From positions 1 through 43,882 of the forward strand of contig JAQXBV010000046.1 of the NCBI GenBank assembly GCA_029252195.1: 43,882 nucleotides of DNA, written 5' to 3'. Source of the DNA: Yoonia sp. GTDB taxonomy: Bacteria > Pseudomonadota > Alphaproteobacteria > Rhodobacterales > Rhodobacteraceae. Shown here piece by piece: positions 4,401 through 43,802 of this stretch. A program made the translations under genes and the position numbers. Positions within the stretch are counted from its first letter, which is position 1. Each line of letters starts with the position of its first letter. The notes below the pieces were generated by a model. That model saw nothing but the letters and a program-made list of their open reading frames with translations, did no database searches and had not been told where the DNA came from.

Positions 4401-5165
4401 ATGCACAACAGACCTATCGGGCCACCAAATTTGCGACCTATTTCGACGTCGGACATTCTGCAAAGTCTCGCCGCAGGCATAAGAGACTTTCGTGCAGCGC
4501 CGGTTCCGGGTCTGTTTTTCGCGAATTTCTACGTGCTCGGCGGACTCATCATGACGTGGATCACCTATGTAACTGGCACGACGTTCTGGCTCGTCCTTGC
4601 GGTTATGGGCTTCCCGCTGATTGGCGCCTTCGCGGCGCTTGGGCTTTACGAGACCAGCCGGAGACGCGCGGCAAACGAACCCATCAATCTGCGCGAGATC
4701 GCCAGTCTGGTTTGGGCGCATAAGGTCGGGCAACTGCCGTGGCTTGCCGTGATCCTTGTGATCCTGTTTTTGTTCTGGTTCTTCCTTGGGCACATGATTT
4801 TCGCACTCTTTCTGGGCCTGTCCCCCATGACCAATGTGCACAGTTCAACCGAGGTCTAATTCTCTGGGAACGGATTGAAAATGCTCGGTTTCGGTACGGC
4901 TGTGGGCGCAATTTTCGCGAGCCTGACCTTCGCGGTTTCCGTCCTTGGGATGCCGATGTTTCTTGATCGCGACGTCGATTTCGTCACCGCGATGATCACG
5001 TCCTTCAAACCGGTCAAGGCGCAACCGATCTGTTATCTGGCTTGGGGCGTCTTCATCGGGATCGTGACCTTGATCGCCATGATCCCCGCGTTCCTCGGGC
5101 TGTTCGTCGTCCTGCCCATTTTAGGGCATGCGACATGGCACCTCTACAAGTCAGCGACCACCTAA
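4401..5165 (+). pseudogene. DUF2189 membrane protein interrupted by an in-frame TAA
   Basis: This is a polytopic inner-membrane protein of the DUF2189 family, about 254 residues if read through. The start is ATG at 4401, with GGGAG at 4388-4392. The first part (codons 1-152) carries several membrane helices and ends SPMTNVHSSTEV. Codon 153 (4857-4859) is TAA. The same frame then continues without a gap as FSGNGLKMLGFGTAVGAIFA through two more helices to the true stop at 5163-5165. The downstream reading is clearly the rest of the same family, so a single substitution made the stop, possibly from a Tyr codon. A separate short protein starting near 4875 is possible but lacks a good ribosome-binding site. 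Function of the family is unknown. Confidence 0.85.
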
Positions 5166-5737
5166 TGGCCGCGCGCCATCATTGCTTCATGTGCCGCCTG
5201 CATCCCGCGCGCGGCTAGGTCACTGACCTCGGCGGCATGGGTTTGCAGCGCCGCGACAACCTCGGGGTCGTCGGACGTTTGCACAATTTCAACACCCGTC
5301 GCCGTATAATTGATCTCCGTCACGATGAATTCGAACTTTTCGAACAAAACATCCAACGTAAGGCTCTGGATCGGAATCTCTGGGTCACGCTTTTCGTCGA
5401 CGCGCGAAAGCATGCTCACGATGTGACTAGTCATCGCGTCCCGCAGGTCCGCGTCGTCGGTTTCCGTCACGGTCCGGATCCCGTTGGGCAGGTTCTCGAC
5501 CGTGCGGGTCAAGGCGGTGTGATTCTCAAACAAGGCCCGCAATTCCGCAACTTCAAAGACTTCGGTATCCTTGCCGATCAGCATCGGAGTGCCCGCAATA
5601 TCGTGCATCATCCGTTCGCCCATCACAGACGACATCATCATATGCAGACCGCCCATCCGGTGTGTGCCCTGATAGGCCGCACCCGCAAGCAAGACCACCG
5701 CCCCAAGCGCCACAAGTCCAAGTGTCTGTTTTTTCAT
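5162..5737 (-). CDS. Membrane-anchored Met/His-rich protein of unknown function
   Basis: I do not recognise this 191-residue protein. The start is taken as ATG at 5737 (MKKQTLGLVALGAVVLLAGA), giving one N-terminal membrane segment and presumably a periplasmic domain. Just after the helix is a Met/His-rich stretch, HRMGGLHMMMSSVMGERMMH (residues about 26-45), and the C-terminus ends AAHEAMMARGH. Methionine-histidine clusters of this kind are common in periplasmic copper-binding proteins, but no CxxC or cupredoxin site is present. The central region is acidic and helical. The stop overlaps that of the convergent DUF2189 gene by three bases. Confidence 0.7.
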   Translation of the reverse strand: MKKQTLGLVALGAVVLLAGAAYQGTHRMGGLHMMMSSVMGERMMHDIAGTPMLIGKDTEVFEVAELRALFENHTALTRTVENLPNGIRTVTETDDADLRDAMTSHIVSMLSRVDEKRDPEIPIQSLTLDVLFEKFEFIVTEINYTATGVEIVQTSDDPEVVAALQTHAAEVSDLAARGMQAAHEAMMARGH

Positions 5738-5841
5738 CTCAGGGATCCATTTCGGCTCAATACATTTCACAAACGCAATATGATGCAAGTGACGCGGCGC
5801 GACAACCGCTTGTTTTGCGGTTTGCGCGATTTGTAGGCGCT

Positions 5842-6300
5842 TCAGATTTTCGTGTCGCGCCGCTCTACGAAAAACGCGCGCAAGAGACTCTCAGAAGCCT
5901 CTGCCCCGATCCCGTCATAAACTTCTGGCCTGTGATGGCACTGCGGATGTTCAAAAATCCGTGGGCCCTGCGCAACCCCCCCCGATTTCGGGTCCGCGGC
6001 CCCATAATAGAGCCGCCCAATCCGCGCGTTGGAGATTGCAGCAGCACACATCGGGCAAGGCTCTAACGTGACGTAGAGATCATAGCCCGTTAGTCGCTCC
6101 TGCCCCAAGGCAGCACAAGCCGCGCGAATGGCCAAAATCTCCGCATGAGCGGTTGGATCATTCAACTCACGGGTGCGGTTTCCTGCTTTTGAAACAATGC
6201 CTTGCGGGCCTGCGACCACAGCGCCACAAGGCACTTCACCGCGCGCAGCAGCGGCGGTTGCTTCGGCCATGGCGGCGTCCATATGGCTGGTAAAACTCAT
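5842..6300 (-). CDS. tadA: tRNA adenosine(34) deaminase
   Basis: TadA deaminates adenosine 34 of tRNA-Arg(ACG) to inosine and is normally essential. The zinc deaminase motifs are intact: HAEILAIRAA (ligand His and catalytic Glu) and PCPMCAAAI (PCxxC). The 152-residue reading from ATG at 6300 (MSFTSHMDAAM) matches the family. An in-frame extension upstream adds unrelated residues and was not used. The gene is divergent from the methyltransferase at 6364, and the 63-bp spacer must hold both promoters. No lesions are seen. Confidence 0.93.
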   Translation of the reverse strand: MSFTSHMDAAMAEATAAAARGEVPCGAVVAGPQGIVSKAGNRTRELNDPTAHAEILAIRAACAALGQERLTGYDLYVTLEPCPMCAAAISNARIGRLYYGAADPKSGGVAQGPRIFEHPQCHHRPEVYDGIGAEASESLLRAFFVERRDTKI

Positions 6301-6363
6301 GCTATTTGATGCCTGAACGTAGATGAAACTTGCAACCCCCAAAGTGTCGGCTCAATGTAGGAT

Positions 6364-7131
6364 ATGGCTCAAGACATCTACGATACGGCATTTGTCGCCA
6401 CCCTGTTTGATCGCTGCTCGGCGCGTTACCGCCGTTGGAGTGCGCTGTCCTCATTCGGTTTTGTCTGGCTCTGGCGCAAACAATGTGTGGACCGCCTCAT
6501 TGGGCAAACCAGCATCGCGCGGATCCAAGATGGCGCACTGTCACCGCGCATCCCAAAAGTCACCCAAGTCATTGATCTTATGTCAGGAACGGGCGAAATA
6601 TGGCCCCATGTTCTGGCGGCATTTCCCCGCGCACAGATCACCGCGATCGACATTTCCCCCGCAATGCATATGGAAGCGCTCGCCAAATTGCACGGCACCC
6701 GCGCGCATAAAATCAGTCATATGACCGCCGATGCGCTCGGCTCTGATCTGCCAGCGGAGACGGCCGATTTGCTGGTGGCCAGTTTTGGGCGAAAGACCTT
6801 TAGTCCGACGCAGCAAACCCTGCTGGCGGGTCAAATTGCCCGTATCCTGAGACCAGGCGGCAGCTTTTCTCTGATTGAGGCCTCCGATCCGAAGGGCTGG
6901 ATTTTTCGCCCCCTCTACCGCGCCTAGCTTGGGGGCCTTCTCCCTCTTGTGGAACGGCTATTTCTGCAAGGCGCCCAAGACTTTAGCATGATAGGCACCT
7001 ATACGGCGGCCTTTGGAAACTGCCGCCATATGGAGGCTGCGTTGCGCGAGGCGGGTCTCAAAGTCACCTACAGAAAGCATTTTTTCGGCTGCGCGACATC
7101 CGTTGCAGGCACAAAGCCGATTGCGCAATAA
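6364..7131 (+). pseudogene. SAM-dependent methyltransferase (UbiE/COQ5-like) interrupted by an in-frame TAG
   Basis: A class I methyltransferase of about 255 residues, with motif I VIDLMSGTGEIWPHVLAAFP, motif II ITAIDISPAM and the post-motif ILRPGGSFSLIEASDP. The overall layout recalls ubiquinone/menaquinone-type C-methyltransferases. Codon 188 (6925-6927) is TAG, after RPLYRA. The frame resumes at once as LGGLLPLVERLFLQGAQDFS and runs to TAA at 7129-7131 with a conserved-looking C-terminus. A Tyr codon is the likely ancestral state, one base away. The truncated 187-residue product keeps the SAM-binding core but loses the C-terminal substrate-side part, so activity is doubtful. Confidence 0.82.
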
Positions 7132-7155
7132 CCCGCCACGCCGTAAGGCAATCCC

Positions 7156-7968: not shown

Positions 7969-8115
7969 ACCTTGCCGCCCCTGCCGCTTTATGCATCTTA
8001 TAGCGCTAACGGAAAACGAGATGTTTTCGTCACCGAGCAAAAGCCGCGTATCGGCACTCGCAAATCGACAAGAACATCCCTATTATTTTGACTGTGGCCT
8101 GGCCTAGCGGGCAAT

Positions 8116-8202
8116 ATGCCAAAACCTTTTCAACGCGGCGCTTACGTCGTTCTTATCGTGCTGTTGTTCAGCGTCACATCCGGTTGGTTGGGGGCGCTCT
8201 GA
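8116..8202 (+). CDS. Possible 28-residue single-helix membrane peptide
   Basis: A short reading frame begins at ATG 8116 and encodes a basic start (MPKPFQRGAY) followed by one hydrophobic helix, VVLIVLLFSVTSGWLGAL, ending in TGA at 8200-8202. Its stop sits exactly where the next gene should begin. The sequence there is TGATC, whereas TGATG would give the usual stop-start overlap. That geometry, more than the weak ribosome-binding site, suggests it is a real small gene or leader of the operon. Coding status is unproven. Confidence 0.35.
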   Translation: MPKPFQRGAYVVLIVLLFSVTSGWLGAL

Positions 8203-9080
8203 TCGCCAAGCAATTCGGCGGCAAATATAGCCCAAACGGGACAAGCGACACCAGCCCGCGCGAGGTGATTGATGATCGCCAGGTGGACGCGGCGGGCGGG
8301 CGCTCGAACCTCTTGTTTATTCCCGCGATTGTGCTGGTAGCGACGACATTTTCGGGCGGACCTGTGTCATTGATCACGGGGTTAGTTGGGGCTGTTGCCT
8401 TGACGCTCGCAGCAATGCTGTTGCGCGAAGGACTGCGTGCCGAGGCCGCTTATGACCTGCGCAAAGTGGCGCGCCGCCCTGCGTTTCCACGCAAAATGCT
8501 GGCCTCTGCCCTGACTGGCGTGGGCATCGCGATTGCCTCTTATGCCCATGACGCGAGTATTTTGACCGCACTGCTTTATGGCGTTGCAGGTCTTTCAGTG
8601 CATGTCGCGGCCTTCGGAATTGATCCGATGCGCGACAAGCGGATGGAGGGAATCGACACCTTCCAGCAAGACCGCTTCGCCAAGGTGGTGGACGAGGCCG
8701 AGGCCTATCTCAACGTCATGAAAAGCCAGATCGAAGGGTTGAATGACCGTCGAATGCTGATCCGCGTGACCGCGTTTCAAGCCGCCGCGCGCAAGATGAT
8801 CCGCACCGTAGAGGAAGACCCGCGCGACCTGACGGGGGCGCGCAAGTTTTTGGGCGTCTATTTGATGGGCGCGCGCGATGCGACGGTGAAATTCGTCGAC
8901 CTTTATCGCCGCTCAAAAGATGAGACAGCCCGCGCGAACTACGAAAGCCTGCTCGGCGATTTGGAACAAAACTTCGCCGCCCGCACCGAAAAAATGTTGC
9001 TCGATGACCGCAGCGACATGGACATTGAAATCAAAGTGCTGCGCGACCGTTTGCAGCGCGAAGGCGTAGGCCTGTCATAA
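8184..9080 (+). CDS. XpaC-like (5-bromo-4-chloroindolyl phosphate hydrolysis family) membrane protein, start codon probably lost
   Basis: The product has membrane segments around LLFIPAIVLVATTF, ITGLVGAVALTLAAMLL and LTALLYGVAGLSVHVAAF. A long helical cytoplasmic part follows that includes GIDTFQQDRFAKVVDEAEAY, typical of XpaC-family proteins that travel with TelA. The body is intact to TAA at 9078-9080. The beginning is odd. The natural N-terminus should be MAKQFGGKYSPNGTS, but the expected ATG at 8202-8204 reads ATC, and no ATG or GTG lies nearby. TTG at 8184 is the nearest standard start, with no ribosome-binding site. Expression may therefore be lost. The gene is first in the XpaC-TelA-DUF2927-SPFH-zinc-ribbon operon. 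Confidence 0.75.
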   Translation: MVGGALIAKQFGGKYSPNGTSDTSPREVIDDRQVDAAGGRSNLLFIPAIVLVATTFSGGPVSLITGLVGAVALTLAAMLLREGLRAEAAYDLRKVARRPAFPRKMLASALTGVGIAIASYAHDASILTALLYGVAGLSVHVAAFGIDPMRDKRMEGIDTFQQDRFAKVVDEAEAYLNVMKSQIEGLNDRRMLIRVTAFQAAARKMIRTVEEDPRDLTGARKFLGVYLMGARDATVKFVDLYRRSKDETARANYESLLGDLEQNFAARTEKMLLDDRSDMDIEIKVLRDRLQREGVGLS

Positions 9081-9095
9081 CAAGGGAGACATCGT

Positions 9096-10286
9096 ATGTC
9101 TGACACAATCCGTAAACAAGCCGAGGCCGCATTGGCCAATGTTGAAAAAGTGACAGCCGTTGTGCTGGCAGAACCCACAGGCGAGCTGGTCAGCATGGCA
9201 GAGGCCGACAAGCCGACGACCGCCGAGATCAAGCGCCGTATGGACGAAATCGACATGAGCGACACACAGTCTATCGTGTCTTTCGGATCATCCGCGCAGG
9301 CCGAATTGCAAGTGATCAGCCGGTCGATGCTGGCAGGTGTGCGCAACAAGGATGTTGGCCCTGCTGGTGATAGCCTGCGCAATATCGTCAGCACGATTCG
9401 CGGCTTCTCGATTTCCGAACTTGACGTGCGTCGCAAGCGGTCTTGGTGGGAAAAGCTCTTGGGTCGCGCGGCCCCGATGGCCAAATTTGTTGCGCGTTTT
9501 GAAGATGTTCAGGGCCAGATCGACAATATCACCGATGACCTTCTCAAGCATGAGCATGTGCTGTTGAAAGACATCGCAAGCCTTGACGTTCTCTATGACA
9601 AGACGCTGCAATTCTATGATGAACTGGCGCTTTACATTGCAGCTGGTGAGGCGAAACTTGCCGATCTCGACGGCACCGTGATCCCCAAGAAAGAGCTTCA
9701 GGTCTCCAAGGCCCCAGAGAGCAAAGCGGTCATGATGGCGCAAGAATTGCGCGATATCTGCTCGGCGCGCGATGATTTGGAACGCCGTGTGCACGACCTT
9801 AAACTGACCCGTCAGGTCACGATGCAGTCCTTGCCGTCGATCCGCCTTGTGCAGGAAAATGACAAGTCTCTGGTGACCAAGATCAACTCCACTTTGGTCA
9901 ATACGGTCCCGCTTTGGGAAACCCAATTGGCGCAGGCCGTCACGATCTAACGCTCTGCCGAAGCGGCCGAGGCTGTGCGCGATGCTAACGATCTGACGAA
10001 CGATCTGCTCACCGCCAATGCCAAGAACCTGCGCGACGCCAACAAGGTGATCCGTGAGGAAATGGAGCGCGGCGTGTTTGATATCAACGCGGTGAAAGAG
10101 GCCAACGCCAATCTGATCGCAACGATCAACGAGAGCCTTGAGATTGCCGATGAAGGCAAGCGCAAGCGCGCCGAGGCCGAAGTGGAGCTGAAAAAGATGG
10201 AAGTCGAGTTGAAAAACACGCTTGCCTCTGCGAAGGCCCGCAAGACGGGCACAGGCGACAACGTCGGCACAGCAGCAGGTGCATAA
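9096..10286 (+). pseudogene. TelA-family toxic anion resistance protein interrupted by an in-frame TAA
   Basis: TelA proteins are soluble, mostly helical proteins named for tellurite resistance in plasmid systems. They are now linked to envelope stress together with XpaC-like partners, and the molecular activity is unknown. The start is ATG at 9096 with AGGGAG eight bases upstream. Codon 285 (9948-9950) is TAA, after NTVPLWETQLAQAVTI. The frame continues directly with RSAEAAEAVRDANDLTNDLL, the conserved TelA C-terminal helix region, to TAA at 10284-10286. The full reading is 396 residues, the normal family length. CAA (Gln) to TAA is the simplest change. The truncated 284-residue form lacks roughly the last quarter, including a conserved coiled segment. 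Confidence 0.88.
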
Positions 10287-11252
10287 ATGAAACGTTGGGG
10301 TGGCGTGACCGCGTTGGGTTTGGGTTTTTGGGCTCTGACGGCCTGCACGCCCGCGCCACCCCAAAGCGTCCAACCCGCGTCAATGCCGCCACGAGACCGC
10401 GCGGTGCAAATTGCGCCCGTTGTAACGGCACCTCCGCAATCAGATGAAGCCGAGGACGAACTGCGCCGCTATTATAAGCGGCTGCAAAACGATCTCCTCG
10501 CACGTGGTCTTTTGCGCTCGGACGGGGGCGGTCCAGACACACCGTTCACTGATACCCAACTGGCGCGAAATTTTATTCGGATCGCGCTTTTCGACGAATA
10601 TGTAATTGATGGCGGTGAATTGCGCGCAGCACCAACCGCGTCAAAGCTGCGCCGTTGGGAACAACCCGTGCGCATGTCGGTGAGTTTTGGCGACCAAGTG
10701 AGTGACACACAAAGGGCCGCGGATTTGGCCGAAGTCAGCAAATACACCCGCAGGTTAAGCCGTTTGACTGGCCTGCTGATCACCATAACCGACGCCAATC
10801 CAAACTATTTCGTGCTGTTCTTAGGCGAGAACGAACGTCTCGCCTCAGAGGTCCGCTTGCGTCAGATGGTGCCAGGCATTGCCCAAAGCTCGCTCCGCGC
10901 GATCCTCAATCTACCGCGCGATCAGCTTTGCATCATCGTTGCCTTTTCCGACCCTGGCCAGTCGCAATACCAAAAAGCCATCGCCGTCATTCGGGACGAA
11001 CATCCGCAAGCGATGCGCCAATCGTGCATCCATGAGGAATTGGCCCAGGGCCTTGGCCTCGCCAACGATAGCCCCGCCGCACGCCCTTCGATCTTTAACG
11101 ATGACGAAGAATTCGGGCTGTTGACCACGCATGACGAGCTTTTGCTTACAATGCTGTATGACCGCCGCTTGCAGTCGGGCATGGACGCCACGCAAGCCGC
11201 CCCCATCGCGCAAATCATCGCAACTGAATTGGCAGGCGGCGGCGCAAGCTAG
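10287..11252 (+). CDS. DUF2927 lipoprotein with a HEExxQ-like motif
   Basis: A 321-residue DUF2927 protein. The N-terminus is a lipoprotein signal ending WALTACTPAPP, so it is probably anchored in the envelope. A Pro-rich linker leads to the conserved domain (about residues 85-310). Within it, SCIHEELAQGLGLANDS resembles the active-site helix of zinc metallopeptidases (HExx followed by a Gln and GLGL), and a Cys pair (DQLCIIVAF and SCIHEE) may form a disulfide. Peptidase activity is only suggested. The ATG at 10287 directly follows the TelA stop with no gap, showing tight operon packing. No damage is visible, although neighbours on both sides are broken. Confidence 0.8.
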   Translation: MKRWGGVTALGLGFWALTACTPAPPQSVQPASMPPRDRAVQIAPVVTAPPQSDEAEDELRRYYKRLQNDLLARGLLRSDGGGPDTPFTDTQLARNFIRIALFDEYVIDGGELRAAPTASKLRRWEQPVRMSVSFGDQVSDTQRAADLAEVSKYTRRLSRLTGLLITITDANPNYFVLFLGENERLASEVRLRQMVPGIAQSSLRAILNLPRDQLCIIVAFSDPGQSQYQKAIAVIRDEHPQAMRQSCIHEELAQGLGLANDSPAARPSIFNDDEEFGLLTTHDELLLTMLYDRRLQSGMDATQAAPIAQIIATELAGGGAS

Positions 11253-11276
11253 CCCCACAGCAAAGGAGCCTTTACA

Positions 11277-12385
11277 ATGGGTATTTTCGATTTTCTGAGC
11301 GGCGAGTTTATCGACGTTATTCATTGGACAGACGACACCCGCGACACCATTGTCTGGCGGTTCGAGCGTGAGGCCCACGAGATCAAATATGGCGCCAAGC
11401 TGACCGTGCGCGAAGGCCAAGCCGCTGTTTTCGTTCATGAAGGTCAGTTGGCCGATGTCTTTACGCCAGGTCTCTACAGCTTGAGACCAATAACATGCCG
11501 ATCCTGACGACCCTCAACCACTGGGATCACGGTTTCAAAAGCCCATTCAAATCCGAGATTTATTATATCAACACGACCCGCTTTTCCGATCTGAAGTGGG
11601 GCACCAAAAACCCGATTATGTTGGCCGATCCAGAATTCGGCCCGACCCGTTTGCGCGCCTTTGGCACCTATTCGGTCAAAGTTTCCGACCCTGCGGTGTT
11701 TATGCGCGAGATTGTTGGCACGGACGGCGAATTCACGATGGATGAGATCAGCTTCCAGATCCGCAATATCATTGTGCAAGAGTTCAGCCGCGTCATCGCC
11801 TCTTCGGGCATTCCTGTGCTGGATATGGCCGCCAATACGGCTGATCTGGGCAAACTTGTTGCCGCAGCCATATCGGAAACCATGACCCAATACGGTCTCA
11901 TGATCCCCGAGCTTTATATTGAAAACATCAGCTTGCCGCCCGCGGTCGAGGCGGCGCTCGACAAGCGCACCTCGATGGGGATCGCTGGCGATTTGGGCAA
12001 ATTCACCCAGTATTCCGCTGCCGAGGCCATGACAGCCGCCGCCAACAATCCAAACGGTGGCGGTGGCATGGGCGCAGGTCTTGGGATGGGCATGGGGATG
12101 GCGATGGCCAACCAGATGCAAACCGGCCCTTGGGGTGCGGCACCTGTCGCACCGCCCGCCGCACCACCGCCACCACCCGTAGAACACGTTTGGCCCATTG
12201 CGGTTGACGGGGCGGTCACTGGACCCTTCTCCAAGGCCTCGATGGGCCGCATGGTCACCGACGGGGCGCTGACACGCGACACCCATGTCTGGACACAAGG
12301 TCAGGACGGCTGGAAGCGCGCCGAGGATGTTGTGGAACTGGCCCAACTCTTCACTGTTCTCCCGCCGCCGCCGCCAGGCGCGTAA
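11277..12385 (+). pseudogene. SPFH-domain (YdjI / virion-core-like) protein with GYF_2 tail, one-base deletion
   Basis: The start is ATG at 11277 with AAGGAG nine bases upstream. The first frame reads MGIFDFLSGEFIDVIHWTDD to VFTPGLYSL and then goes off into nonsense, stopping at 11507. Adding one G near 11484 restores LETNNMPILTTLNHWDHGF and the rest of the SPFH domain, followed by a Gly/Met-rich stretch and a Pro-rich linker. A C-terminal GYF_2-like domain comes last (VWPIAVDGAVTGPF to VWTQGQDGWKRAEDV), ending at 12385. So this is a 369-residue gene broken by a deletion in a GG pair. YdjI-type SPFH proteins are thought to assemble at membranes under envelope stress. Confidence 0.87.
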
Positions 12386-12401
12386 GGTTGCAATCGTTCA
12401 A

Positions 12402-13496
12402 ATGACCGACACGCAGATCGAGCATCGTTTTCCTTGTGACAGTTGCGGGTCAGACCTTCGGTTTGACCCCGCCTCGCATCAACTCGTTTGCGACCACTGT
12501 GGCAATCAACAGACCATCGGTGGCACACAAACCACTGTCGGCGGGATCAAAGAGCTCGATTTCCGCGCGGCCGTCGCGAATAAGCTGGACGCGGCCGAGA
12601 TTGAAGAAACCCGCGTTATCACCTGCCCCAATTGCGGGGCGAGCACCGAACTTGACGAAACCACCCACGCCGCCGAATGTCCGTTTTGTGCAACTCCTGT
12701 CGTGACCGATACGGGGCTGCACAGGCATATCAAACCGCGCGGCCTCCTGCCCTTTGCGCTTGACGAACCTTCAGCGCGCAAGGCGCTGACGGGTTGGCTC
12801 GGCAGCCTCTGGTCTGCACCCAACGGGCTGATGGAATACGCCCGAAAAGGCCGCCAGATGAACGGTATTTATGTGCCCTATTGGACGTTTGATGCCGATC
12901 CCAAAAGCGCCTATCGGGGCCAACGCGGGATGCATTACTGCGAGACCAAAACGGTCGTGCGCGACGGCAAGCGTGAACAGGTGCGCGTACGCAAAACCCG
13001 CTGGTCAAGCGCATCAGGTCGCGTCGCCCGCTTCTTTGACGATGTGCTTGTCTTGGCCTCCAAGAGCCTGCCGAAACGCTATACAGATGGGCTGGAGCCG
13101 TGGGATCTGTCGGCGTTAGAGCCCTATAAACCCGAATATCTCGCGGGGTTCCGCGCCGAAGGATATCAGGTCGAGCTTGTCGATGGCTTCACCGAAGCGC
13201 GCGCCTATATGGACCGCATGATCTTGCGTGATGTGAAATACGATATAGGCGGTGACGAGCAGCGGGTCAGCGACGTGCAAACGCAGATCAACGACGTGAC
13301 GTTCAAGCATATTCTCCTACCGGTCTGGCTGGCCGCCTATAAGTATCGCGGGCGCACCTTCCGCTTTGTCGTGAACGGGCGCACGGGGCGGGTCCAAGGC
13401 GAGCGGCCCTATTCCGCGTGGAAAATTACTTTTGCCGTGATCATCGGACTCATTATTGCGCTTATTGCTGGATATGTTATCGCTAACAACCAGTAG
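12402..13496 (+). CDS. TFIIB-type zinc-ribbon membrane protein (YdjG-like)
   Basis: A 364-residue protein with two N-terminal zinc ribbons: CDSCGSDLRFD with CDHCGN (residues about 12-32) and CPNCGASTELD with CPFCATP (about 70-90). A large middle domain with many Trp/Tyr residues follows, then one C-terminal membrane helix ITFAVIIGLIIALIAGYVI, so it is a tail-anchored protein facing the cytoplasm. In Bacillus a zinc-ribbon membrane protein (YdjG) also neighbours an SPFH protein (YdjI), which supports joint function. The start ATG 12402 lies 16 nt after the SPFH stop, and its ribosome-binding site is weak. It is the last gene of the cluster and intact. Confidence 0.8.
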   Translation: MTDTQIEHRFPCDSCGSDLRFDPASHQLVCDHCGNQQTIGGTQTTVGGIKELDFRAAVANKLDAAEIEETRVITCPNCGASTELDETTHAAECPFCATPVVTDTGLHRHIKPRGLLPFALDEPSARKALTGWLGSLWSAPNGLMEYARKGRQMNGIYVPYWTFDADPKSAYRGQRGMHYCETKTVVRDGKREQVRVRKTRWSSASGRVARFFDDVLVLASKSLPKRYTDGLEPWDLSALEPYKPEYLAGFRAEGYQVELVDGFTEARAYMDRMILRDVKYDIGGDEQRVSDVQTQINDVTFKHILLPVWLAAYKYRGRTFRFVVNGRTGRVQGERPYSAWKITFAVIIGLIIALIAGYVIANNQ

Positions 13497-13509
13497 TTTG
13501 GAGGTTGAG

Positions 13510-18532: not shown

Positions 18533-20086
18533 TTAGAAGTCGGTCGGCGCGCCACCTTCTTCTTTGCGCTTGGCAACAAAGGTTGCTAGCTCTTCGCGCA
18601 CCCCTTCGTCCATTTTCGGCGGCTCAGACGTGCCGATAATGTCTTTAAAGGTGCGATGTGCACGCTCCGCCGTCCAGACGCCGCCCGCGACTTCCCAAGC
18701 CTCAAAGTTCCGCCAATCGGAGACGATGGGTGAATAAAACGCCTTTTCATAGCGGTCTTGGGTATGCTGAATGCCGAAGAAGTGGCCTGTCGGTCCAACC
18801 TCTTTGATCGCATCAATCGCGATGTCGTCCACGCCCGTCGCCACGATTTCGGGCTCCATATAGCGCTGGATCATCTGGATGACTTCGCAGTCCATGATGA
18901 ATTTTTCAGGGCAAGCGATCAGCCCGCCCTCAAGCCAGCCCGCTGCATGATAGACGACGTTGGTGCCCGATTGCACAGCCGACCAGAGCGAGTTGGAGGT
19001 TTCCCACATCGCTTGGCCGTCGGGCACGTTGGCCGCACAGACGCCAGAGGCTCGCATCGGCAGCCCATAGAACCGTGCCATCTGACCTGTCATTTGCGTC
19101 GCGCGCATATACTCGGGGGTGCCGAAAGCAGGCGCGCCCGATTTCATATCGACGTTGGAGGTGAATGTGCCGATCACGCAGGGCGCGCCCGGCCGGACGT
19201 ATTGGAAGAGAGCGATTGCGGAAAGAGCTTCGGCGATAGAAAGCGTCACAGCGCCCGACATGGTGACGGGCGCCATCGCACCTGCGAGCGTGAAAGGTGT
19301 CACGATGACGGCTTGGCCACGCCGCACGCAGCGCAAGCAGCCGTCGATCATCGGCACGTCATGCTTGAGCGGCGAGGTCGAGTTGATGTTGGTATACATG
19401 TGCGGTTTAGCGACGAACTCTTCTTCGGTCAGCCCGCCCGCGATTTTGACCATTTCCATGACATCTTCGACGCGTTCTTTGCCTAAGGAATAGGCATGCG
19501 CCACTTTGTCGGTGAGCGTCATTTTGTCGTAAACCACGTCAAGGTGGCGCACAGAGGCGTGCACATCAACAGGTTCAACCGGATAGCCCCCCGCAAAGTG
19601 GATGCAGTTGAAATACTGGGTCAGACGCAGAAGATCAGCACATTGTGCGCGGGTGCCAGAGACCTTTTTGCCGATCTCCATGTCGAAATAATTGGGCGGC
19701 GAAGAGACGTTGCCGAACAGGATATGCTTACCGCCGATGGTGATCTTGCGGTCGGGGTTGCGCGGGGTGATGTCGAACTGCGCGGGCGCATGCGACAGCA
19801 TTTCCATGACCCAATCGCGGCCCATACGCACATTGGTGCCGTTCACGGTGCAGCCTGCTTGCTTGAACAGCTCAAGCGCCTCTTCATTGAGAAACTCGAT
19901 CCCGATGTCCTCAAGAATCGTCATCGCACCGTTGTGAATGGCCTCGACACCCTCGGGGCCAAGCGGTTCTGTCGGGCGATCCGTGTTGACGGGGATGCGC
20001 CATGGCATCTGATCAATGACCTCGTGACCACGTCGTGTCGCGTTGCCTGCCCGTCCGCCGCCACGCCGTCTTGGTGTGTCTGACAT
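18533..20086 (-). CDS. MttB-family (trimethylamine methyltransferase-like) corrinoid methyltransferase
   Basis: A 517-residue TIM-barrel protein of the trimethylamine:corrinoid methyltransferase superfamily. The reading is continuous, with no amber codon for pyrrolysine. It therefore belongs to the non-pyrrolysine branch, whose characterised members include glycine betaine and related quaternary-amine methyltransferases. Family blocks are GAMTILEDIGIEFLNEEAL near the N-terminus, NSTSPLKHDVPMIDG, and GATGHFFG-like VGPTGHFFGIQHTQ near the C-terminus. No corrinoid protein (MttC-like) partner is in the window. The substrate is therefore open: glycine betaine, proline betaine, carnitine and similar are all possible. 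A hairpin overlies its ribosome-binding site. It follows the HAD gene by 91 nt. Confidence 0.85.
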   Translation of the reverse strand: MSDTPRRRGGGRAGNATRRGHEVIDQMPWRIPVNTDRPTEPLGPEGVEAIHNGAMTILEDIGIEFLNEEALELFKQAGCTVNGTNVRMGRDWVMEMLSHAPAQFDITPRNPDRKITIGGKHILFGNVSSPPNYFDMEIGKKVSGTRAQCADLLRLTQYFNCIHFAGGYPVEPVDVHASVRHLDVVYDKMTLTDKVAHAYSLGKERVEDVMEMVKIAGGLTEEEFVAKPHMYTNINSTSPLKHDVPMIDGCLRCVRRGQAVIVTPFTLAGAMAPVTMSGAVTLSIAEALSAIALFQYVRPGAPCVIGTFTSNVDMKSGAPAFGTPEYMRATQMTGQMARFYGLPMRASGVCAANVPDGQAMWETSNSLWSAVQSGTNVVYHAAGWLEGGLIACPEKFIMDCEVIQMIQRYMEPEIVATGVDDIAIDAIKEVGPTGHFFGIQHTQDRYEKAFYSPIVSDWRNFEAWEVAGGVWTAERAHRTFKDIIGTSEPPKMDEGVREELATFVAKRKEEGGAPTDF

Positions 20087-20876: not shown

Positions 20877-20939
20877 TTTGGGTTCCTTCTTTGTCTCGTA
20901 TTGACACTCCACCCTGCGGCCGTGACGGTGTCAACTATC

Positions 20940-23900
20940 ATGCTCAAACTTCGCTCTTACCGTTCCCGCCCGATGCATCTTGGTCCGTTTCCGCTTGAAA
21001 AACTCAAGCGGATGTCTGGGGTTGATCTGTCAGCCATGCCTGTGATGCAACCGGTTTCTTTTCGCCGGCCTGAGGACCACAAAAGCATCGTAAACGCGAT
21101 GCAGGAATATCAGGCGATGCTTGATGCGACGCGGGACGGGATGGTGAAACGAGAGATCGCCGAAATTCCCAATGACTTGGCAGAACGCGCCAATCATATG
21201 AAATCATTCGGTTATTATTGCGACGCCAGCATGGTTGGCACCTGCGCGATTGATCCGGCGGTCTGGCTGGATGCGCCGCTCGTGAACCCCGATGTGGACC
21301 GATTGGCCGATAAATTGCGGGTGATGCAGCCCAAATCATTGGCCGCGGGCATTGATGTGATTATGGCGGGCCTGCGCGAGAGTATGGCTTTGCCCCCCGC
21401 CGATTGCCGTCATCATACACATGCGATCATGTTCTTATATGACCACCCCCGCGCGCCGCGCGAGGACGAGGTGGGTGCCGGCTGGATCAAAGACGCCCTG
21501 CCCCAGCGCACCTGTTTGCGCAGCATGGAAACCGCCGTGACGCTGGCGAGTTATATCCGCACCTTGGGCTATGAGGCGCGGGCCCATTCGATGGCGGCGA
21601 GCGACGTGAATTTGGGGGCGCTGGCGGCTTCGGCAGGTTTGGTAGCCTTGGAAGACGGTGTTTTGGTGAACCCGTTTACGGGCGACCAATACGGTTTGGC
21701 GGCGGTGACGACGACGCTTGAAATGGCCGCTGATTTGCCGATTGTGCCGTGTCAGGAAGCCCCGCTCAGCTATACTTTCGGCATGGGCGCACATACGAAA
21801 TCGGCTGGTCGCCGCGATGTTTACGCCAAGCGCGATTACGCCTTGGGTCCGCATCCCTTTGAGACGCTCAAACGCGTGGAAACCCCCACGACCTATATTG
21901 ACGCGCCCAATGTCGCGCGGGTCCCAAAACGGGCGAACCTGTTTGCGCGGGCGCTGTTTGGGGACTTGGGCAAACAGGTGCAAGAGGCCACAAAAAACGG
22001 CAACTATGTGCGCAAATCAGCGAGCGCTTTTGCGTTCCGCCCGTCGCTTGGTGCCTTTGTATTGCTACAGGATGGCGAGGCGGCGGCAAAGCAGGACGGC
22101 ACTGACGACACCGCGGCAAATGCCGCCAATATCAAGGCAGCGCTTTATTTCCTTGGTGTCGATGCCTGCGGATTAAGCGCTTGTCCTGACTGGGCCTACT
22201 ATAGCCATGACGCGGCGGGCGGGCCTATTACCCCCTACCACCGCAACGCAATTTCAATGATTATCGACCAAGGTCACGAAACGATGGAGGGCGCATCGGG
22301 CGACGACTGGATCGCCTGCGCCCAATCCATGCGAGCCTATTTGCGGTTTTCGCTTTTGGGCGGTGTTTTGGCGCAGCATTTGCGCAACTTGGGCTATACG
22401 GCGCGGGTTCATTCGGTCATGGACGACGAGGTGCTACATCCGCCGCTCCTGTTGCTCGCGGGGCTTGGCGAGGTCAGCCGCATTGGCGAGGTGATCCTCA
22501 ATCCGTTCCTTGGACCGCGTTTGAAATCGGGCGTTGTCACAACGAATATGCCGATGACACACGACAAGCCGATTGATTTTGGCCTGCAAAGCTTTTGCGA
22601 AGCCTGCAATAAATGCGCTCGCGAGTGCCCGTCTGGCGCTATTACGGCAGGACCAAAGCTGATGTTCAACGGCTATGAGATTTGGAAATCCGATAGCCAG
22701 AAATGCACGACCTACCGCGTGAGCCAGAAGAATGGCGCGATGTGCGGGCGCTGTATGAAGACCTGCCCCTGGAACCTCGAAGGGCTGTTTGCAGAGGCCC
22801 CGTTCCGCAAGCTGGCGATGACGGTGCCAAAGGCGGCAAGGGCCTTGGCGGCGCTCGATGACACCCTCGGCAATGGGTCGATAAATCCCGTCAAAAAGTG
22901 GTGGTGGGACTTGGAGATGCGCGACGACGGGGCTTACCGCACTGCCATTGAGCCTGTGAACAAACGGGCCTTGTCGCGCGACTTGAAGCTGCGTTATGCG
23001 GATCAGACTTTGGCAGTTTACCCCGCCCCCCTTGCGCCGCCGCCCTACCCTTGGCCGTTTCCGATGGACCGCGAAGCTGGGATCGCGGCCTATCAGGCGA
23101 TGATATCAGCAGATGAGCATAGGGCGCGGCGGGCCAACGGCCTGCCAACTGAGCATGTGTATCGCGCAACCGAGGGCGACGCGCCGATCCTAAGCCTAGT
23201 CGTGACGCGGGCCGAGAAATTGACGGATGCAGTGACGCTCTATGAGTTTTCAGACCCCAACGGCGCGGACCTGCCGCCTTTTACGGCAGGCGCGCATTTG
23301 GATGTTGTCATCGCGCCTGAGTTCTTTCGCCAGTATTCGATGTCGGGCGACCCTGCGGATCGGAAGTCCTACCAGATTGCGGTGCTGCGCGAGGATCAGG
23401 GGCGCGGTGGCTCTAAACTCATGCACCGGATTTTCGGGCTGGGGCGCAGGGTGTTTGTGTCCAAGCCGATCAACCATTTCCCACTGGTGGAGGACGCCAG
23501 CCACACGATGCTGATGGGCGGGGGGATCGGGATCACGCCGATGATCGCGATGGCGCACCGCTTGCATGCTTTGAGCAAGCCCTTTGCCCTGCACTATAGC
23601 GCGAAAACCCGTGCGGATGCTGGATTCATTCCTTTACTGAGCGCGCAGCCATGGGCCGCAAATGTGCAACTGAATATCTCTGATGAGGGCACGCGGGCCG
23701 ATCTGGCAATGGTGATGGCCTACCGCAAAGGCGCCCATGTCTATACCTGCGGGCCCGACGCTTATATGACGGCGGTGATGGCCGCGGCAGAGGTCAACGG
23801 TTATCCGGAGGAGGCGCGGCATTTAGAGTATTTCGCAGTCCCCGAAGCGCATGACTACGTCAACCACCCATTCAAACTGCGCCTGAAAGACGGGCAGATT

Positions 23901-26350: not shown

Positions 26351-26696
26351 CGGTCAATGTCTCCGCGAAATAGCTGCTTGAATCTGCGAGCAGGTCGACA
26401 GTGACGTCGGTGCCGATCAGGTCGGCCGCAAAGGTCGTCACGGTTGCAGGCGGTGCGATTCCGAACCAGACCCCTGTCACGCCCGCCATAGCAAGCCCGC
26501 CAACACTGGGCCATCCTCCGATGATATCGAAAAAACCGGCCCAAATCGACTGCGTTGGCGCCGGTGCTGCGACCTGCACCGCATCTGCATCGGCCAAAAT
26601 TCGCGCCATCAGGTCATCAGATGGCATCACAGGTTTTGCCTGCGCCAAAGCGAAGAGATCGTCGAGCATTTGATCGTCTGATTTACTCATCTTCAT
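26343..26696 (-). CDS. Small single-helix membrane protein, probable anti-sigma factor
   Basis: A 117-residue protein with a cytoplasmic-looking N-terminus (MKMSKSDDQMLDDLFALAQA), one hydrophobic segment around SVGGLAMAGVTGVWFGIAP (residues about 64-82) and a short outer tail. It overlaps the end of the sigma-factor gene by 14 bases, the usual position of an anti-sigma factor. It lacks the zinc-binding HxxxCxxC motif of ZAS proteins, so assignment as an anti-sigma rests on position and topology only. A second ATG at 26690 is equally possible as start. Confidence 0.65.
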   Translation of the reverse strand: MKMSKSDDQMLDDLFALAQAKPVMPSDDLMARILADADAVQVAAPAPTQSIWAGFFDIIGGWPSVGGLAMAGVTGVWFGIAPPATVTTFAADLIGTDVTVDLLADSSSYFAETLTDG

Positions 26697-27267
26697 ACCC
26701 CAATTCGGCGCGACGGCCTGCTAAAATATCCGTAAGAGCCCTCTTTCCGCGTGCGGTTAAACTTTCCACCGAACGTAGGCTGATGTCCATGATTGTCGCA
26801 ATCTCGGGATTGGACAACCCCTCGAGATGCCGCAACGAGACGGCTTGCGCTTGCCTGTCGGGCAATTGCGCGAGCGCATCCGCCAGTGCGGTCAGGCGCG
26901 ATGTTTCGAGCATTTGTGCGACGGCACTTTTTTGCGGGTCAGCCGGCTCGGCGATATCATCAAGCGAGAGGCTGCGCCTTTTGCGTAGCCGATCGGTGCA
27001 TAAATTGGCCACAACGCGGTAGAGCCATGTCGAGACTTGCGCCTCGCCTTGCCGCCAGTCGGGCGCGATCTTCCAAAGTCGCATCATGGCCTCTTGCGCC
27101 ACATCTTCGGCCTCCGCTCGATCCGCCAGCATGCGTTTCGCCTGTGCCAAAACGCGCGGCACTAGGCGCTGTGACAAGACTTGCGCAGCCGATCCGTCTC
27201 CGCTCGCATAAGCAACCAGAACCGCGTCGTCGGGCGCATCGCGCCAAGATCCCATGAAGGCATTCAT
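26683..27267 (-). CDS. ECF-type RNA polymerase sigma factor
   Basis: A 194-residue extracytoplasmic-function sigma factor. Region 2 is visible as RMLADRAEAEDVAQEAMMRLWKIAP with STWLYRVVANLCTDRLRKRR. Region 4 is the helix-turn-helix ALAQLPDRQAQAVSLRHLEG to ISLRSVESLTARGKRAL. The start is taken as ATG 27267 (MNAFMGSWRDA). An upstream in-frame ATG at 27288 lacks a ribosome-binding site but cannot be ruled out. The gene lies between an EF-hand protein and a probable anti-sigma factor, so it probably controls this envelope set and other genes. Confidence 0.88.
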   Translation of the reverse strand: MNAFMGSWRDAPDDAVLVAYASGDGSAAQVLSQRLVPRVLAQAKRMLADRAEAEDVAQEAMMRLWKIAPDWRQGEAQVSTWLYRVVANLCTDRLRKRRSLSLDDIAEPADPQKSAVAQMLETSRLTALADALAQLPDRQAQAVSLRHLEGLSNPEIATIMDISLRSVESLTARGKRALTDILAGRRAELGYEDE

Positions 27268-27348
27268 GCTCTCAGGTCGTATCCACATTCAGCCACATCG
27301 GCAATGCGCAGGGCCCGCGTTATGCAAGCGCGCCCCGCGCTGCTACAC

Positions 27349-35798: not shown

Positions 35799-35895
35799 GT
35801 CGTCCCCCATTTGTGTTGGGCCGACGTTGTGCGATTCCTTTCGGAGTGGCAAGAACCGCAAGCGACATTTAACGACCTAAATCGAACCGCGTAAA

Positions 35896-36939: not shown

Positions 36940-37055
36940 CGTGATTGCCTTGTGTTGTGTTGTGTCGCAGGCAACCTAGCGTCGAACTTCTTGGTCGCAA
37001 GCCTCAGTTTGCGATTGCAGTGGCGAAACCGACAGCGCAAGGTCGGCCTTTGCAG

Positions 37056-38285
37056 ATGCTGATCACCTTTGGTGCGCTGTTCTTGTCAGTCGCAATGTTG
37101 CAACTCTCGTCAGGTGGCGTTGGGCCGCTGGATGCGTTGACGGGGCTGGCAAACGGCTTTACCCGCAGCGAGGTCGGCTTCTTGGGCTCTGCACATTTCT
37201 TCGGGTTTTTCATCGGCTGCTGGTGGGCGCCGCGCCTGATGGGGAACGTCGGACATAGCCGCGCCTATGCGACATTTACCGCGATGGGCGCCATTGGACT
37301 GGCCGCCCATGTGACCGTGACGGACCCGATGTTCTGGGCCGTTTTCCGCATTGCATCGGGGGTTTGCGTGGCGGGTTGCTACACGGTGATCGAGGCATGG
37401 CTTCAAGCCCGCGTCACAAACGAGACCCGTGGCCGCGCGATGGGCAGCTACCGTATCGTTGATATTGGCGCGTCATTTGTGGCCCAGTTTATGATCGGTG
37501 CGCTGGCGGATATGGAAACCTATATCGCCTATAATGCGCTGACGATCCTGTGTTGTGCGGCGATTTTTCCACTGACACTGACCCGCGCCCAACAGCCCGC
37601 CACACCAACGGCCCCGCGCCTGCGCCCTTCGCTGGCCTGGCGCGCGTCGCCCTTGGCGGTGGCGGGCGTTCTGGTGGCGGCGCAATCAAGTGCTGCGTTC
37701 CGCATGGTCGGGCCGATCTACGGACAAGAGGTCGGATTGGCGGCCAGCCAGATCGGCTACTTTCTCGCCGCATTCGTCGCAGGCGGCGCGCTGGCGCAAT
37801 ATCCTGTCGGCTGGCTGGCGGATAAATTCGACCGGCGCTGGGTGCTTATCTGGCTCTCGGTTGCGGCCATTGTCGCCTGCTTGGTGACCGTCGCATCCGC
37901 AGGAATGGGCACAGGCGCCGTCATGCTCGCTTCCGCCTTCTTTGGCCTGACGACCTTCCCTGTCTATTCCGTCGCGACGGCCCACGCGCATGACTTTGCC
38001 ACGGATGACGAGCGGGTCGAGCTCTCGGCCGCCTTGATGTTTTTCTATGCCGTGGGGGCCATTGCCGCGCCCTATGTCTCGTCGAAACTCATGGCGGGCT
38101 TTGGCGCAGGCGCGCTCTTTAGCTTTATCTCGGCGGGGCACCTGTTGCTCGTGGTCTTTGGCCTGTTGCGGATGCGCGTGCGCAACGCGCCTGCCACGCG
38201 GACGCGTTATATTTACGCGCCGCGCACCAGTTTCATTGTCGGGCGCCTGATGGGGCGCAGTCGCAATCGCGATCAGAACGAATAA
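37056..38285 (+). CDS. MFS transporter (YcaD-like)
   Basis: A 409-residue permease with about 12 helices. Typical blocks are GFLGSAHFFGFFIGCWWAPRL (motif A-like), GYFLAAFVAGGALAQYPVGW with LADKFDRR between the repeats, and FFGLTTFPVYSVATAHAHDF. The start is taken as ATG 37056; an upstream GTG at 37020 and further open codons are possible but lack ribosome-binding sites. The YcaD-like sub-family exports or imports small compounds of unknown identity. Its end overlaps the convergent broken outer-membrane gene by 13 bases. The C-terminal tail is basic (RLMGRSRNRDQNE). Confidence 0.83.
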   Translation: MLITFGALFLSVAMLQLSSGGVGPLDALTGLANGFTRSEVGFLGSAHFFGFFIGCWWAPRLMGNVGHSRAYATFTAMGAIGLAAHVTVTDPMFWAVFRIASGVCVAGCYTVIEAWLQARVTNETRGRAMGSYRIVDIGASFVAQFMIGALADMETYIAYNALTILCCAAIFPLTLTRAQQPATPTAPRLRPSLAWRASPLAVAGVLVAAQSSAAFRMVGPIYGQEVGLAASQIGYFLAAFVAGGALAQYPVGWLADKFDRRWVLIWLSVAAIVACLVTVASAGMGTGAVMLASAFFGLTTFPVYSVATAHAHDFATDDERVELSAALMFFYAVGAIAAPYVSSKLMAGFGAGALFSFISAGHLLLVVFGLLRMRVRNAPATRTRYIYAPRTSFIVGRLMGRSRNRDQNE

Positions 38286-38734
38286 ATCGCCGCAACCCGC
38301 ATTGTTGTCGCATTGCTACCGCCGTCGCTCATGATGTCGCGCAGAACCTCGCCGCGCAAATCAAAGGCGTTGGTGATCGGGGCTTGCAGGCCAAGACCAA
38401 AGTTATAGCCCGTATAGGCAACGTCGCCATCATCGAACCGCGTGCCGCCAATCGAGGCCAGCGCAGTGTAGTTGTCGAACGCGTAACCGCCCATCAGACG
38501 CAGACGCGCGGTATCATAGTCGCCGCCAAGCACGGCCGCCGCGCCGTATTCAACCTCTGCGCCCACCGAGAAAACGCCCATGTCATAGGTGCCGCCTGCC
38601 AAGAGTGACGCGGCTGTTTGACTGTTGTCGTCATCCCCCAGGTTGTAATCAAAAGATACGCCCGCGTAGATGTCTTATGCCGATGCCGCGTTGCCCAATA
38701 GGGCTACCGCAATTGCGATTGTTGTGATTTTCAT
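38273..38734 (-). pseudogene. Small outer-membrane beta-barrel (porin-like) protein, TAA directly after the signal peptide
   Basis: The start ATG at 38734 gives a perfect signal peptide, MKITTIAIAVALLGNAASA, 19 residues. Codon 20 (38677-38675) is TAA. The frame then runs on as DIYAGVSFDYNLGDDDNSQT with amphipathic strands to the end VAAIYSF, a C-terminal Phe typical of barrel assembly signals. The full product would be 153 residues, similar to small porin-like proteins of rhodobacters. As it stands only the signal peptide is made, unless translation restarts inside (38602), which would give a non-exported fragment. One substitution (for example CAA or GAA to TAA) explains it. Confidence 0.85.
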
Positions 38735-38872
38735 TTTGTGCCTCATTGTTTGCTCGTTTTTTTATTATTCTAGGCCCGTCACACATGTTTTTCTAGCCAC
38801 TTTGCGCCCTGCGACTGGCAACCGGCGAAATCCCCCGCTAGAACGACAGCAACATCCAAAAGGAACGACGCA

Positions 38873-40585: not shown

Positions 40586-40660
40586 TCACACGGCTATTGG
40601 ATAACATCAGCGCAGTGGGTTAGACTGGATTAACAGTTTTTAACAGGAACGAGTAACCTC

Positions 40661-41458: not shown

Positions 41459-41476
41459 GCCGTGATCGTCAGATCG

Positions 41477-41503
41477 GCCTCGGCGTGCTGAACGCGCCGA
41501 GGC
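41477..41503. terminator. Possible hairpin between convergent genes
   Basis: A 9-bp perfect stem (GCCTCGGCG at 41477-41485 and CGCCGAGGC at 41495-41503) with a nine-base loop lies between the ends of the transglycosylase and the GGDEF-EAL genes. No T-run is seen on either side, so it may be a weak or bidirectional barrier. Confidence 0.35.
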
Positions 41504-43802
41504 TATGCCGCCCGTCTATGGAAGATATTGACCAATTGCGATGCAGGCAAAGGCTTGCAGAAGTAATACCCCTGTAATGTATCAACACCGATTTCTTCAA
41601 GAATGCGGGCATGGGCTTGTGTTTCCACGCCTTCTGCGGTGACCCCGATATTCAGGGCCTTTCCCATCGCGACGATGGGTTTTAGCAGAGCCTTTTGCTC
41701 GGGGCGGTCCAAGAGCGGCAGAACCAAATCCTTGTCGCTCTTAAAGCGAGTAGGTTCGATTTGGGTCAAGCCCAAAATCGACGCACGTCCGCTGCCAAAG
41801 TCATCAATTTCGATACCGATGCCTTTGGCTTCAAGCTGCTGCAAAAGAAATTTGAATGAGGCATCCAGATCATCGATGAACACAGTTTCAAGGATTTCAA
41901 ACGTTAACTGCGCCTGCAGGTTTGGCAGACACTCAATCGCGAAGAGAAGCTCCTGATCCCGCAACCGCTCCATACTGACATTGACACTTATTTTCGGCAC
42001 ATAATACCCGTCCGCCTCAAGGCGCGCGACAATCTCCGCCGATTTCATTAAGGCGATTGCGTCGATTTCGCTCAAAATTCCAATGGTTTCCGCGACCTCC
42101 AAAAATGCGGCGGGGGGCAAGATACCTTTTGTCGGATGCCGCCATCGCATCAAGACTTCTACGCCAGAAATCACATGATCACCCGCGAAATGCTGGGTCT
42201 GAAAATAGGGCTCGAATTCGTCTTCCTCAAGCGCACAGCGCAGCTCGTCAGCGAGGGTTTTCGTGGCAACCGTGTCCGCCTTCATTTTAGCGTCATAAAG
42301 CCGAAAGCGTCCCCTTCCATCCCGTTTAGCTGCCGAAAGTGATATGCTGGCATCCGCCAAAAGCGTTTCCAGGCTCGCTTGCCCGCAGCCATCAAACGCG
42401 ATCCCGATACTTGCACCAAAGCGAATAATTCTGCCATCAACGGTTTGTGGCTGATTGGCCCAACAGACGATATCATTGGCGAGAAAACAGGCGTTATCTT
42501 CGCTGATTGGTGCCAAAATCAGGAACTCGTCGCCGCCAAATCGCGCGATATGACTGTTTTCTGGCGCGATTTACGTCAGGAACTCGGCGACACAAATCAA
42601 AAGACGATTGCCCGTTTCATACCCGATTGTATCATTAATTTCCTTAAAACGGTCCAGGTCGATACTCAGGATGGCGTGCTTCTCCGGCTTCCCGGCGGGA
42701 GATTTTCTGAAGATGTGCTTTTGCCCTAATCCGCGTTCGTTAAGCAGCCCTGTCAGGGCATCAAGCGTTGCCGCCGTATGGGCAATTTGCTTTTCTCGTT
42801 CCAGCCGTAGCGCTGCGAACTTCAGGCTTTTGGTGCGTTTAGCCACCAAATTCTCCAGTATTTCAGAGTTCCGATTGAGACGGTAAAGGATGACCCCCGA
42901 AAGGAGCGCGATGATGATGGCCATCCAAAACATCGCATCAATGTCCCAAATCTTTGCAGTTGGCTTTTCTGGCCACATCCGGAACTGCCAGTTCCGCACG
43001 ACCTCGTGAGGATGGTCATCATGAACATTGGCGCGCTCGCTCCTTCTTGTGGCCAGCAAAACTGGCTCGGTTTGCATATCGGAAGACGCCTGTGTCACGC
43101 CATTGTCGTAAATCTCGATCTTTTGGCCCAGAAGGGACAAATCATCTTCAACCCAAATCAAAAGTTCTGAAATCTGGAAGACGGTCGCGACGGCACCACT
43201 GGCCGCGGAATTGTCCATGGCAAACGGCGAAATCGCTACGATCATAAGGTCACCAGGCACAAATTCATGCGGATCTGAGAGCTTCATCTCGCCAGTTGCC
43301 ACGGCCCCAAGGTATGTGTGCCGCAACCGCCCCAAGACCACATTAGACCCGATTTCGGACTTCGCGTAATCATTGAGCGGTTCGATCATGGTGATCAGCG
43401 CAAGATCCGTCTCGTCCTCATCTGCCAACGGCACAAAAAGATCATAACAAAGCGCCCGTCGATCAGCATCGGTATTAAGCGTTTGGAAAAATCGCTGAGG
43501 TCGTCTTGTGCGACGTCCGATATGACTATCGTGCCGTCCATGGCGTTCACTTCTGTGAAAAAGCGACTTTTTCTCAGGAAATTGTGAAATGCGCCAGTGG
43601 TGGAGGCTTGCGTCGCACTCGCCCGTTCTATGGCCTTGGCGACATCATTGAGATTGTATCCGATCTGTTCAATGCGTTCGCGAATGATTTCGACCGCGCG
43701 ATCCACGGCAATTTCATTATGGGCGATCTCGGCGGATTGTGCCTTTTGCCGCGCAACCAAATTCAAGCTCTGAATTGCCACAAAAATGGCCACGACAGGC
43801 AT
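41503..43802 (-). pseudogene. Membrane GGDEF-EAL cyclic-di-GMP protein broken by a deletion and an in-frame TAA
   Basis: One gene in three pieces, reading right to left. Piece 1 begins at ATG 43802 (MPVVAIFVAIQSLN, a membrane helix) with a periplasmic sensor. A T5 run at 43439-43435 shifts the frame; adding one T restores RFVMIFFVPLADEDE. Piece 2 continues through a second helix (MAIIIALLSGVILYRL) to the GGDEF domain, where codon TAA (about 42546-42544) interrupts IGYETGNRLLICVAEFLT just ahead of ARFGGDEFLIL. Piece 3 holds the rest and a full EAL domain (GVEVLMRW, SVNVSMERL, EILETVF, DDFGSGRAS, AEGVET, LQGYYFCKPL). The N-terminus may extend to a GTG at 43869 with a further frame change. Ancestral function: turnover of cyclic di-GMP. 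Confidence 0.87.

Follow-up and report, generated by a model that had tools for sequence, protein, structure and literature searches.

The window described here, a stretch of 43,882 nucleotides comprising bases 1-43882 of contig C46 in the draft genome of a Yoonia bacterium, carries eight lesions in seven genes, namely five in-frame stops, two frameshifts and one lost start when syntenic relatives are compared. Three of the lesions fall in a single operon that contains a TelA gene. Most of them are probably genuine and very recent inactivating mutations in genes that the cell can individually do without, and so would be young pseudogenes or null alleles of the population, whilst consensus error may account for a minority of the stops. 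All are private to the source genome, with no lesion common to relatives wherever the site can be aligned, and there is no excess of missense changes to match them.

The source genome is a 2.96-Mb draft in 132 contigs, estimated by the assessment tool to be 95% complete and 1.8% contaminated. It is read here as a member of the Yoonia/Loktanella clade and looks like an environmental marine bacterium. The closest relatives compared, G010, G013 and G014, share gene order with it across most of the window, with DNA identities of 73-84%, and are likewise drafts of 2.8-3.0 Mb, many congeners having 3.5-4.8 Mb. Each lesion was checked by reading the proteins of relatives against the window DNA and by aligning the DNA around the site; the damaged genes are collected in Table 1 together with the other features mentioned.

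Table 1. Damaged genes of the window, open genes of the TelA operon and, in the last four lines, neighbouring features
Feature	Position	Strand	State
DUF2189 membrane-protein gene	4401..5165	+	TAA at 4857-4859, about two thirds of length; 3/3 aligned relatives open
UbiE/COQ5-like methyltransferase gene (PF01209)	6364..7131	+	TAG at 6925-6927, residue 188 of 260
XpaC-like gene (PF10112, Halogen_Hydrol)	8202..9080	+	start codon changed at 8202-8204 (ATC; ATG in 5/5 aligned relatives)
TelA gene (PF05816)	9096..10286	+	TAA at 9948-9950, residue 285 of 396
DUF2927 gene (PF11150) of TelA operon	10287..11252	+	open
SPFH (Band_7_1) and GYF_2 gene	11277..12385	+	one-base loss near 11483
Zinc-ribbon-type gene, last of TelA operon	12402..13496	+	open; all Pfam matches below cut-off
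Small gene without Pfam family	38273..38734	-	TAA at 38675-38677, residue 24 of 157; 3/3 aligned relatives open
GGDEF-EAL gene	41503..43802	-	TAA at 42571-42573 and probable frameshift near 43434-43500; GGDEF and EAL both matched
RNase P class A RNA gene	1..284	-	3' end cut by contig start
MttB-family methyltransferase gene (PF06253)	18533..20086	-	
Reductive dehalogenase-like gene (TIGR02486)	20892..24128	+	
ECF-type sigma-factor gene	26683..27288	-	open

A preliminary description, made from the letters of the window, had counted five stops, four of them TAA and one TAG, with the family sequence resuming in the same frame beyond each, and both points hold, as all five are present against the syntenic relatives and the alignment of the relatives' proteins runs on in the same frame past every one. 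It had placed one stop at 42546, which lies 27 bases from the true site in the GGDEF-EAL gene, a site that is itself a variable position among relatives. Of the two one-base deletions that it proposed, the loss in the SPFH gene stands, the gene being split with six of six relatives' proteins aligning in two frames, whereas the second, in the GGDEF-EAL gene, is seen with G014 only, at 41-53% identity; it was not listed by a stricter scan, and no relative's DNA is aligned there. Leaving the start change aside, seven interruptions of the reading frame in six genes are set against open orthologues in relatives (one relative in the case just named), which is one mark of a pseudogene. The probable loss of a start that had been noted in the XpaC-like gene is also found, with the same replacement against every aligned relative, although it is uncertain that this silences the gene because the frame stays open upstream to a TTG at 8088. 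The methyltransferase gene is open in G010 and G014, the only relatives aligned at its stop, and PF09955 matches both pieces of the DUF2189 gene, the second just under the Pfam cut-off. In the small gene, whose product may be outer-membrane beta-barrel-like, the stop falls near the end of a putative signal peptide.

The density of lesions had been called unusual, and after curation this is apparent within the same region, where the source genome has eight lesions (seven without the start loss) and G010, G013 and G014 have two, none and none. Over aligned codons seven against two gives p=0.002, these curated counts covering the three named relatives whilst the rows of G018, G019 and G006 are uncurated. 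Seven of about 45 comparable genes are hit in the 44-kb window, compared with about 3% in the rest of the sampled genome. The outside sample consisted of 20 further stretches of the source genome and 40 of its relatives, scanned both ways, although for three of the 20 the summed alignment to stretches of the relatives did not exceed 800 bases. Eight lesion sites were kept there for the source genome in about 272 kb of aligned coding DNA and about 261 gene comparisons (stretch L145 was compared with two relatives, and is counted twice), against five sites in 733 kb for the relatives, a density 4.3-fold higher in the source genome (p=0.0095). The lesions are 6.6-fold more crowded inside the window than outside it (p=0.0004), a figure that is too high to the extent that the window drew notice by its lesions in the first place. 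They crowd in the window because three lie in the TelA operon and two in one GGDEF-EAL gene.

These contrasts are drawn from curated rows. The scans gave 42 raw rows for the source genome, 32 for G010, 20 for G013 and 18 for G014, with rows in the first 15 query residues counted but not printed, and after reading 14, 4, 0 and 1 were kept respectively. Seventeen doubtful rows were aligned at the DNA level, and those dropped were put down to extended N-termini, frames on the antisense strand or intergenic sequence, in a curation that was done unblinded. The density statistics use 16 lesions, being the 14 kept rows together with the start change and the frameshift near 43434-43500 and excluding a small duplication in an OpuAC-type gene, and a frameshift of G010 (L182 19711) is counted though it could not be aligned.

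Decay and assembly error were the two explanations offered at the outset, and they are still the two candidates. If the lesions were uncorrected consensus errors of the draft, arising from low coverage or strain mixing, the genes would be intact in the cell. A draft in 132 contigs, base changes of mixed types with several transversions, and the presence of lesions elsewhere in the genome would all suit this explanation, as would the conservation of the damaged genes apart from their lesions, with TelA at 96% identity and the first SPFH piece at 94-96%, as if still functional. However, random substitution error would be expected to bring about 24 missense changes with every stop, about six of them radical at conserved columns, and no increase on that scale is seen in either missense or radical changes. 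At window columns where all other aligned genomes agree (the four close genomes and at least one of three others), private changes number 104 of 5524 in the source genome, 111 of 5531 in G010, 145 of 5565 in G014 and 193 of 5613 in G013, with 11, 11, 13 and 22 radical changes respectively. Across 41,336 four-genome codon columns there are 100 radical private changes in the source genome, where 109.6 are expected from the relatives when scaled by fourfold changes and 139.8 are predicted if all 12 stops were errors (joint likelihood-ratio p=0.004; within the window by itself, p=0.019). With all missense changes and G010 as the yardstick, p is 0.096 within the window and 0.007 overall. In the segment from 5.8 to 16.5 kb, 1061 columns are conserved in 95% or more of the aligned genomes (up to 83), and the source genome deviates at 14 of them, with 9.1 expected and 31.6 predicted on the assumption that all three substitution lesions of the segment are errors (joint p=0.044; 0.050-0.064 for the TelA operon alone). 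In this test the start change was given the same weight as a stop, and the number of codons, 3400, is an estimate. An excess of missense changes of the size predicted by random error is thus not seen, at p values of 0.004 to 0.096 depending on the column set. The two one-base losses that can be aligned at the base level do not lie in long homopolymers, and a gene elsewhere carries a 14-base tandem duplication, neither of which favours error. A C-to-T damage pattern is ruled out by the mixture of base changes. All the tests point the same way, though each is of modest strength, and they assume similar branches; they disfavour error alone as the source of the lesions, which is accordingly regarded as unlikely. 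The question of error is narrowed to this modest degree, with site-by-site proof resting with the raw reads.

A number of observations weigh against genuine mutation as the origin of most lesions. The lesions are known from the assembly consensus alone, and the missense tests depend on few stops and on the assumption of a shared missense-to-fourfold ratio, which varies from 0.85 to 1.04 among the relatives; the upper limit they allow is 4.85 error stops of the 12. Within the window the missense-to-fourfold ratio of 0.905 and the radical-to-fourfold ratio of 0.106 are each the second highest of four, and the test on all missense changes there is weak. In its radical share of private changes the source genome ranks first among the four, at 10.0% against 8.8, 9.6 and 9.0%, although not significantly so (p=0.43), and the deviations at conserved columns are slightly raised (P=0.08); both of these are also what error would tend to produce. 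The density contrast hinges on the unblinded curation, with raw rows per kb differing little (0.134 against 0.124, 0.077 and 0.084) and rows having at least two reference genomes giving seven against six (p=0.06). Finally, the damaged genes show no robust signal of relaxed selection.

That signal is not consistently visible in any case. In the TelA operon, columns from up to seven genomes give 27 private changes in the source genome against 77 elsewhere, where the pooled relatives have 54 against 395 (p=6e-4), yet four-genome columns give no excess (p=0.5, in a set that included one spurious antisense frame, 9947-10348), and at columns conserved over up to 83 genomes nine changes are seen where 5.8 are expected (P=0.14). 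Because consistent drift in the operon is not seen, the lesions are called recent, which agrees with the preliminary description of them as recent single changes. The same description took the sparing of housekeeping genes as a hint of relaxed selection. These genes are indeed intact, with gatA, gatC, tadA, dtd, metG, znuA, znuB and znuC open and a FUR-family gene open in the position of zur, but the sparing carries no weight because gatA, gatC, tadA and metG make up only about 10% of the coding DNA, and the probability of no hit among eight lesions is 0.44.

Decay could also be meant in the broader sense of early genome reduction, in which a lineage with a recent change of lifestyle is losing accessory functions genome-wide. 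The curated excess of lesions outside the window over the three relatives could be read in this way, as could a genome of 2.96 Mb set against the larger congeners, but the three closest relatives are similarly small drafts, and the excess itself depends on the unblinded curation. The PF00665 transposase family, the one family tested, has eight matches against 0-11 in six relatives and so is not expanded, leaving decay driven by insertion sequences unsupported for that family, and the missense-to-fourfold ratio over all columns, 0.787, is the lowest of four. The pseudogenes through the genome, expanded insertion sequences and raised ratio of nonsynonymous to synonymous change that would be looked for in reductive decay are therefore not what was found, with only about 3% of genes affected outside the window. 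Reduction of this kind appears distinctly unlikely, and the earlier suggestion of a decaying genome is too strong for eight sites in about 261 gene comparisons.

It might also be supposed that the stops are read through, by a suppressor tRNA or a reassigned codon, and that full proteins are still made, as five of the eight lesions are in-frame stops with alignable sequence beyond them in the same frame. However, outside the window TGA stops occur besides TAA and TAG, and frameshifts, the tandem duplication and the lost start accompany them. No suppressor anticodon is present among the 30 of 34 tRNA loci examined. Among the matches listed for ABC-ATPase domains one from the source genome has a TAG, its others being free of stops, and none from three relatives holds a stop. 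Readthrough is on these grounds extremely unlikely, and codon reassignment and nonsense suppression were rejected. A mutator through mutS is not supported. The mutS gene, the only mismatch-repair gene looked at, is open, and private fourfold changes number 1269 in the source genome against 1249, 1736 and 1599 in the relatives, with no elevation of the sort that a mutator would bring.

What genuine mutation would mean is most easily seen in the TelA operon, where five genes (XpaC-like, TelA, DUF2927, SPFH/GYF and zinc-ribbon) follow one another head to tail from 8202 to 13496. Three of the eight lesions fall within this 13% of the coding length, and the clustering is suggestive but not significant (P=0.076). 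The proposed course of events is that individually dispensable genes of a marine bacterium of the Yoonia clade were hit by fresh null mutations, and that once one member of the operon had been lost the other members would have been free to break. TelA is found in 55 of 56 genomes of the genus, the source genome included, and is interrupted in the source genome and in G020. SPFH is similarly found in 55 of 56, being split in the source genome, G060 and G021, the last two near residues 282-298 and unlike the site in the source genome; the SPFH match of G053 ends early, and both genes are missing from G057. Such a distribution suggests that some lineages can do without an operon that is otherwise carried almost throughout Yoonia.

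The function that may be lost can be approached through Bacillus subtilis, in which YdjI presumably belongs to Pfam Band_7_1 and YdjG is taken to have a zinc ribbon. An SPFH-domain protein beside a zinc-ribbon-type protein in the Yoonia operon recalls the YdjGHI-PspA membrane-stress complex, as far as the available part of its description goes (PMC8581546), and because its parts are reminiscent of that complex the damage would, in biological terms, most likely mean that a device against envelope stress has been lost, a loss of function deduced by analogy. Unlike the Bacillus complex, as so described, the Yoonia operon adds XpaC-like, TelA and DUF2927 genes and is known here from its genes alone, and no PspA was seen among the window genes scanned. 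It is conceivable, although quite doubtful, that the population was sampled just as it began to lose a conserved operon for envelope stress along with further accessory genes, with the nulls having arrived and the proteins not yet drifted. If true, the genome would offer a natural record of how genes are lost at a stage when relaxed selection has yet to show.

Broken genes at a level of a few percent are ordinary in the wider group, since published accounts, as far as their available parts go, give pseudogene shares of 3.5-15.3% for pelagic Roseobacter clusters, by another method (PMC12661815). In Octadecabacter, a share of about 1.5% is given for pseudogenes unlinked to transposons, and this was called above the clade average in the available portion of that paper (PMC3646047). 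In what those sources describe, young pseudogenes of the Roseobacter group resemble those of the source genome, being accessory genes that are conserved apart from stops, frameshifts or small duplications. Where the Yoonia case differs is in having seven of about 45 comparable genes hit within 44 kb and about 3% elsewhere, and in that its aligned lesions are single-base changes whereas most of the Octadecabacter cases set out there involve transposable elements (PMC3646047). What can be carried to other draft genomes is a usable test, in which stop codons are weighed against the missense load expected of errors. Beyond this test and the operon, the case is one of ordinary pseudogene biology, a known kind of event that is locally crowded.

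The lesions kept outside the window lie in genes for a hybrid kinase, an oligopeptide-transporter ATPase, YcjX, an ABC exporter, an OpuAC-type binding protein, an LpxR-like and a pectate-lyase-like protein, and in one gene without a family. Two sites, L130 19915 and L145 17693, have one relative each for comparison, the second at a variable position. Four cases are supported by follow-up searches that covered seven relatives, a number that takes in the genome of the query itself. In these YcjX is open in seven of seven searched, the hybrid kinase in all six that match it at E<=1e-60, the transporter ATPase in the four relatives with a match of at least 79% identity, and the OpuAC-type gene in the three relatives that have it. 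The OpuAC-type gene (L141, about 4590) has a one-base loss and, as a second lesion, the perfect 14-base tandem duplication, which is of the sort that replication slippage typically produces. For the hybrid histidine kinase, which presumably carries a CckA-like motif, the loci are L143 19194 and L225 2363-3301; the gene is broken by TAG, and a second copy on contig C43, 67% identical, is open over the aligned part. The TGA codons listed in this second copy and in YcjX of G010 were discarded, as both lie outside the aligned protein. G010 has in its own copy of the window region (L113) a stop and a frameshift in one gene, assigned to the ECF-type sigma factors from the window's own copy, which is open.

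Some further features of the window are independent of the lesions. The contig begins inside the RNase P class A RNA gene. The reductive dehalogenase-like gene has a product of about 1078 residues with 4Fe-4S, flavin-reductase-like and 2Fe-2S regions, which we take to resemble the self-sufficient reductive dehalogenases of aerobic marine bacteria. The MttB-family methyltransferase gene, matched by PF06253 over nearly its full length, is divergent from it.

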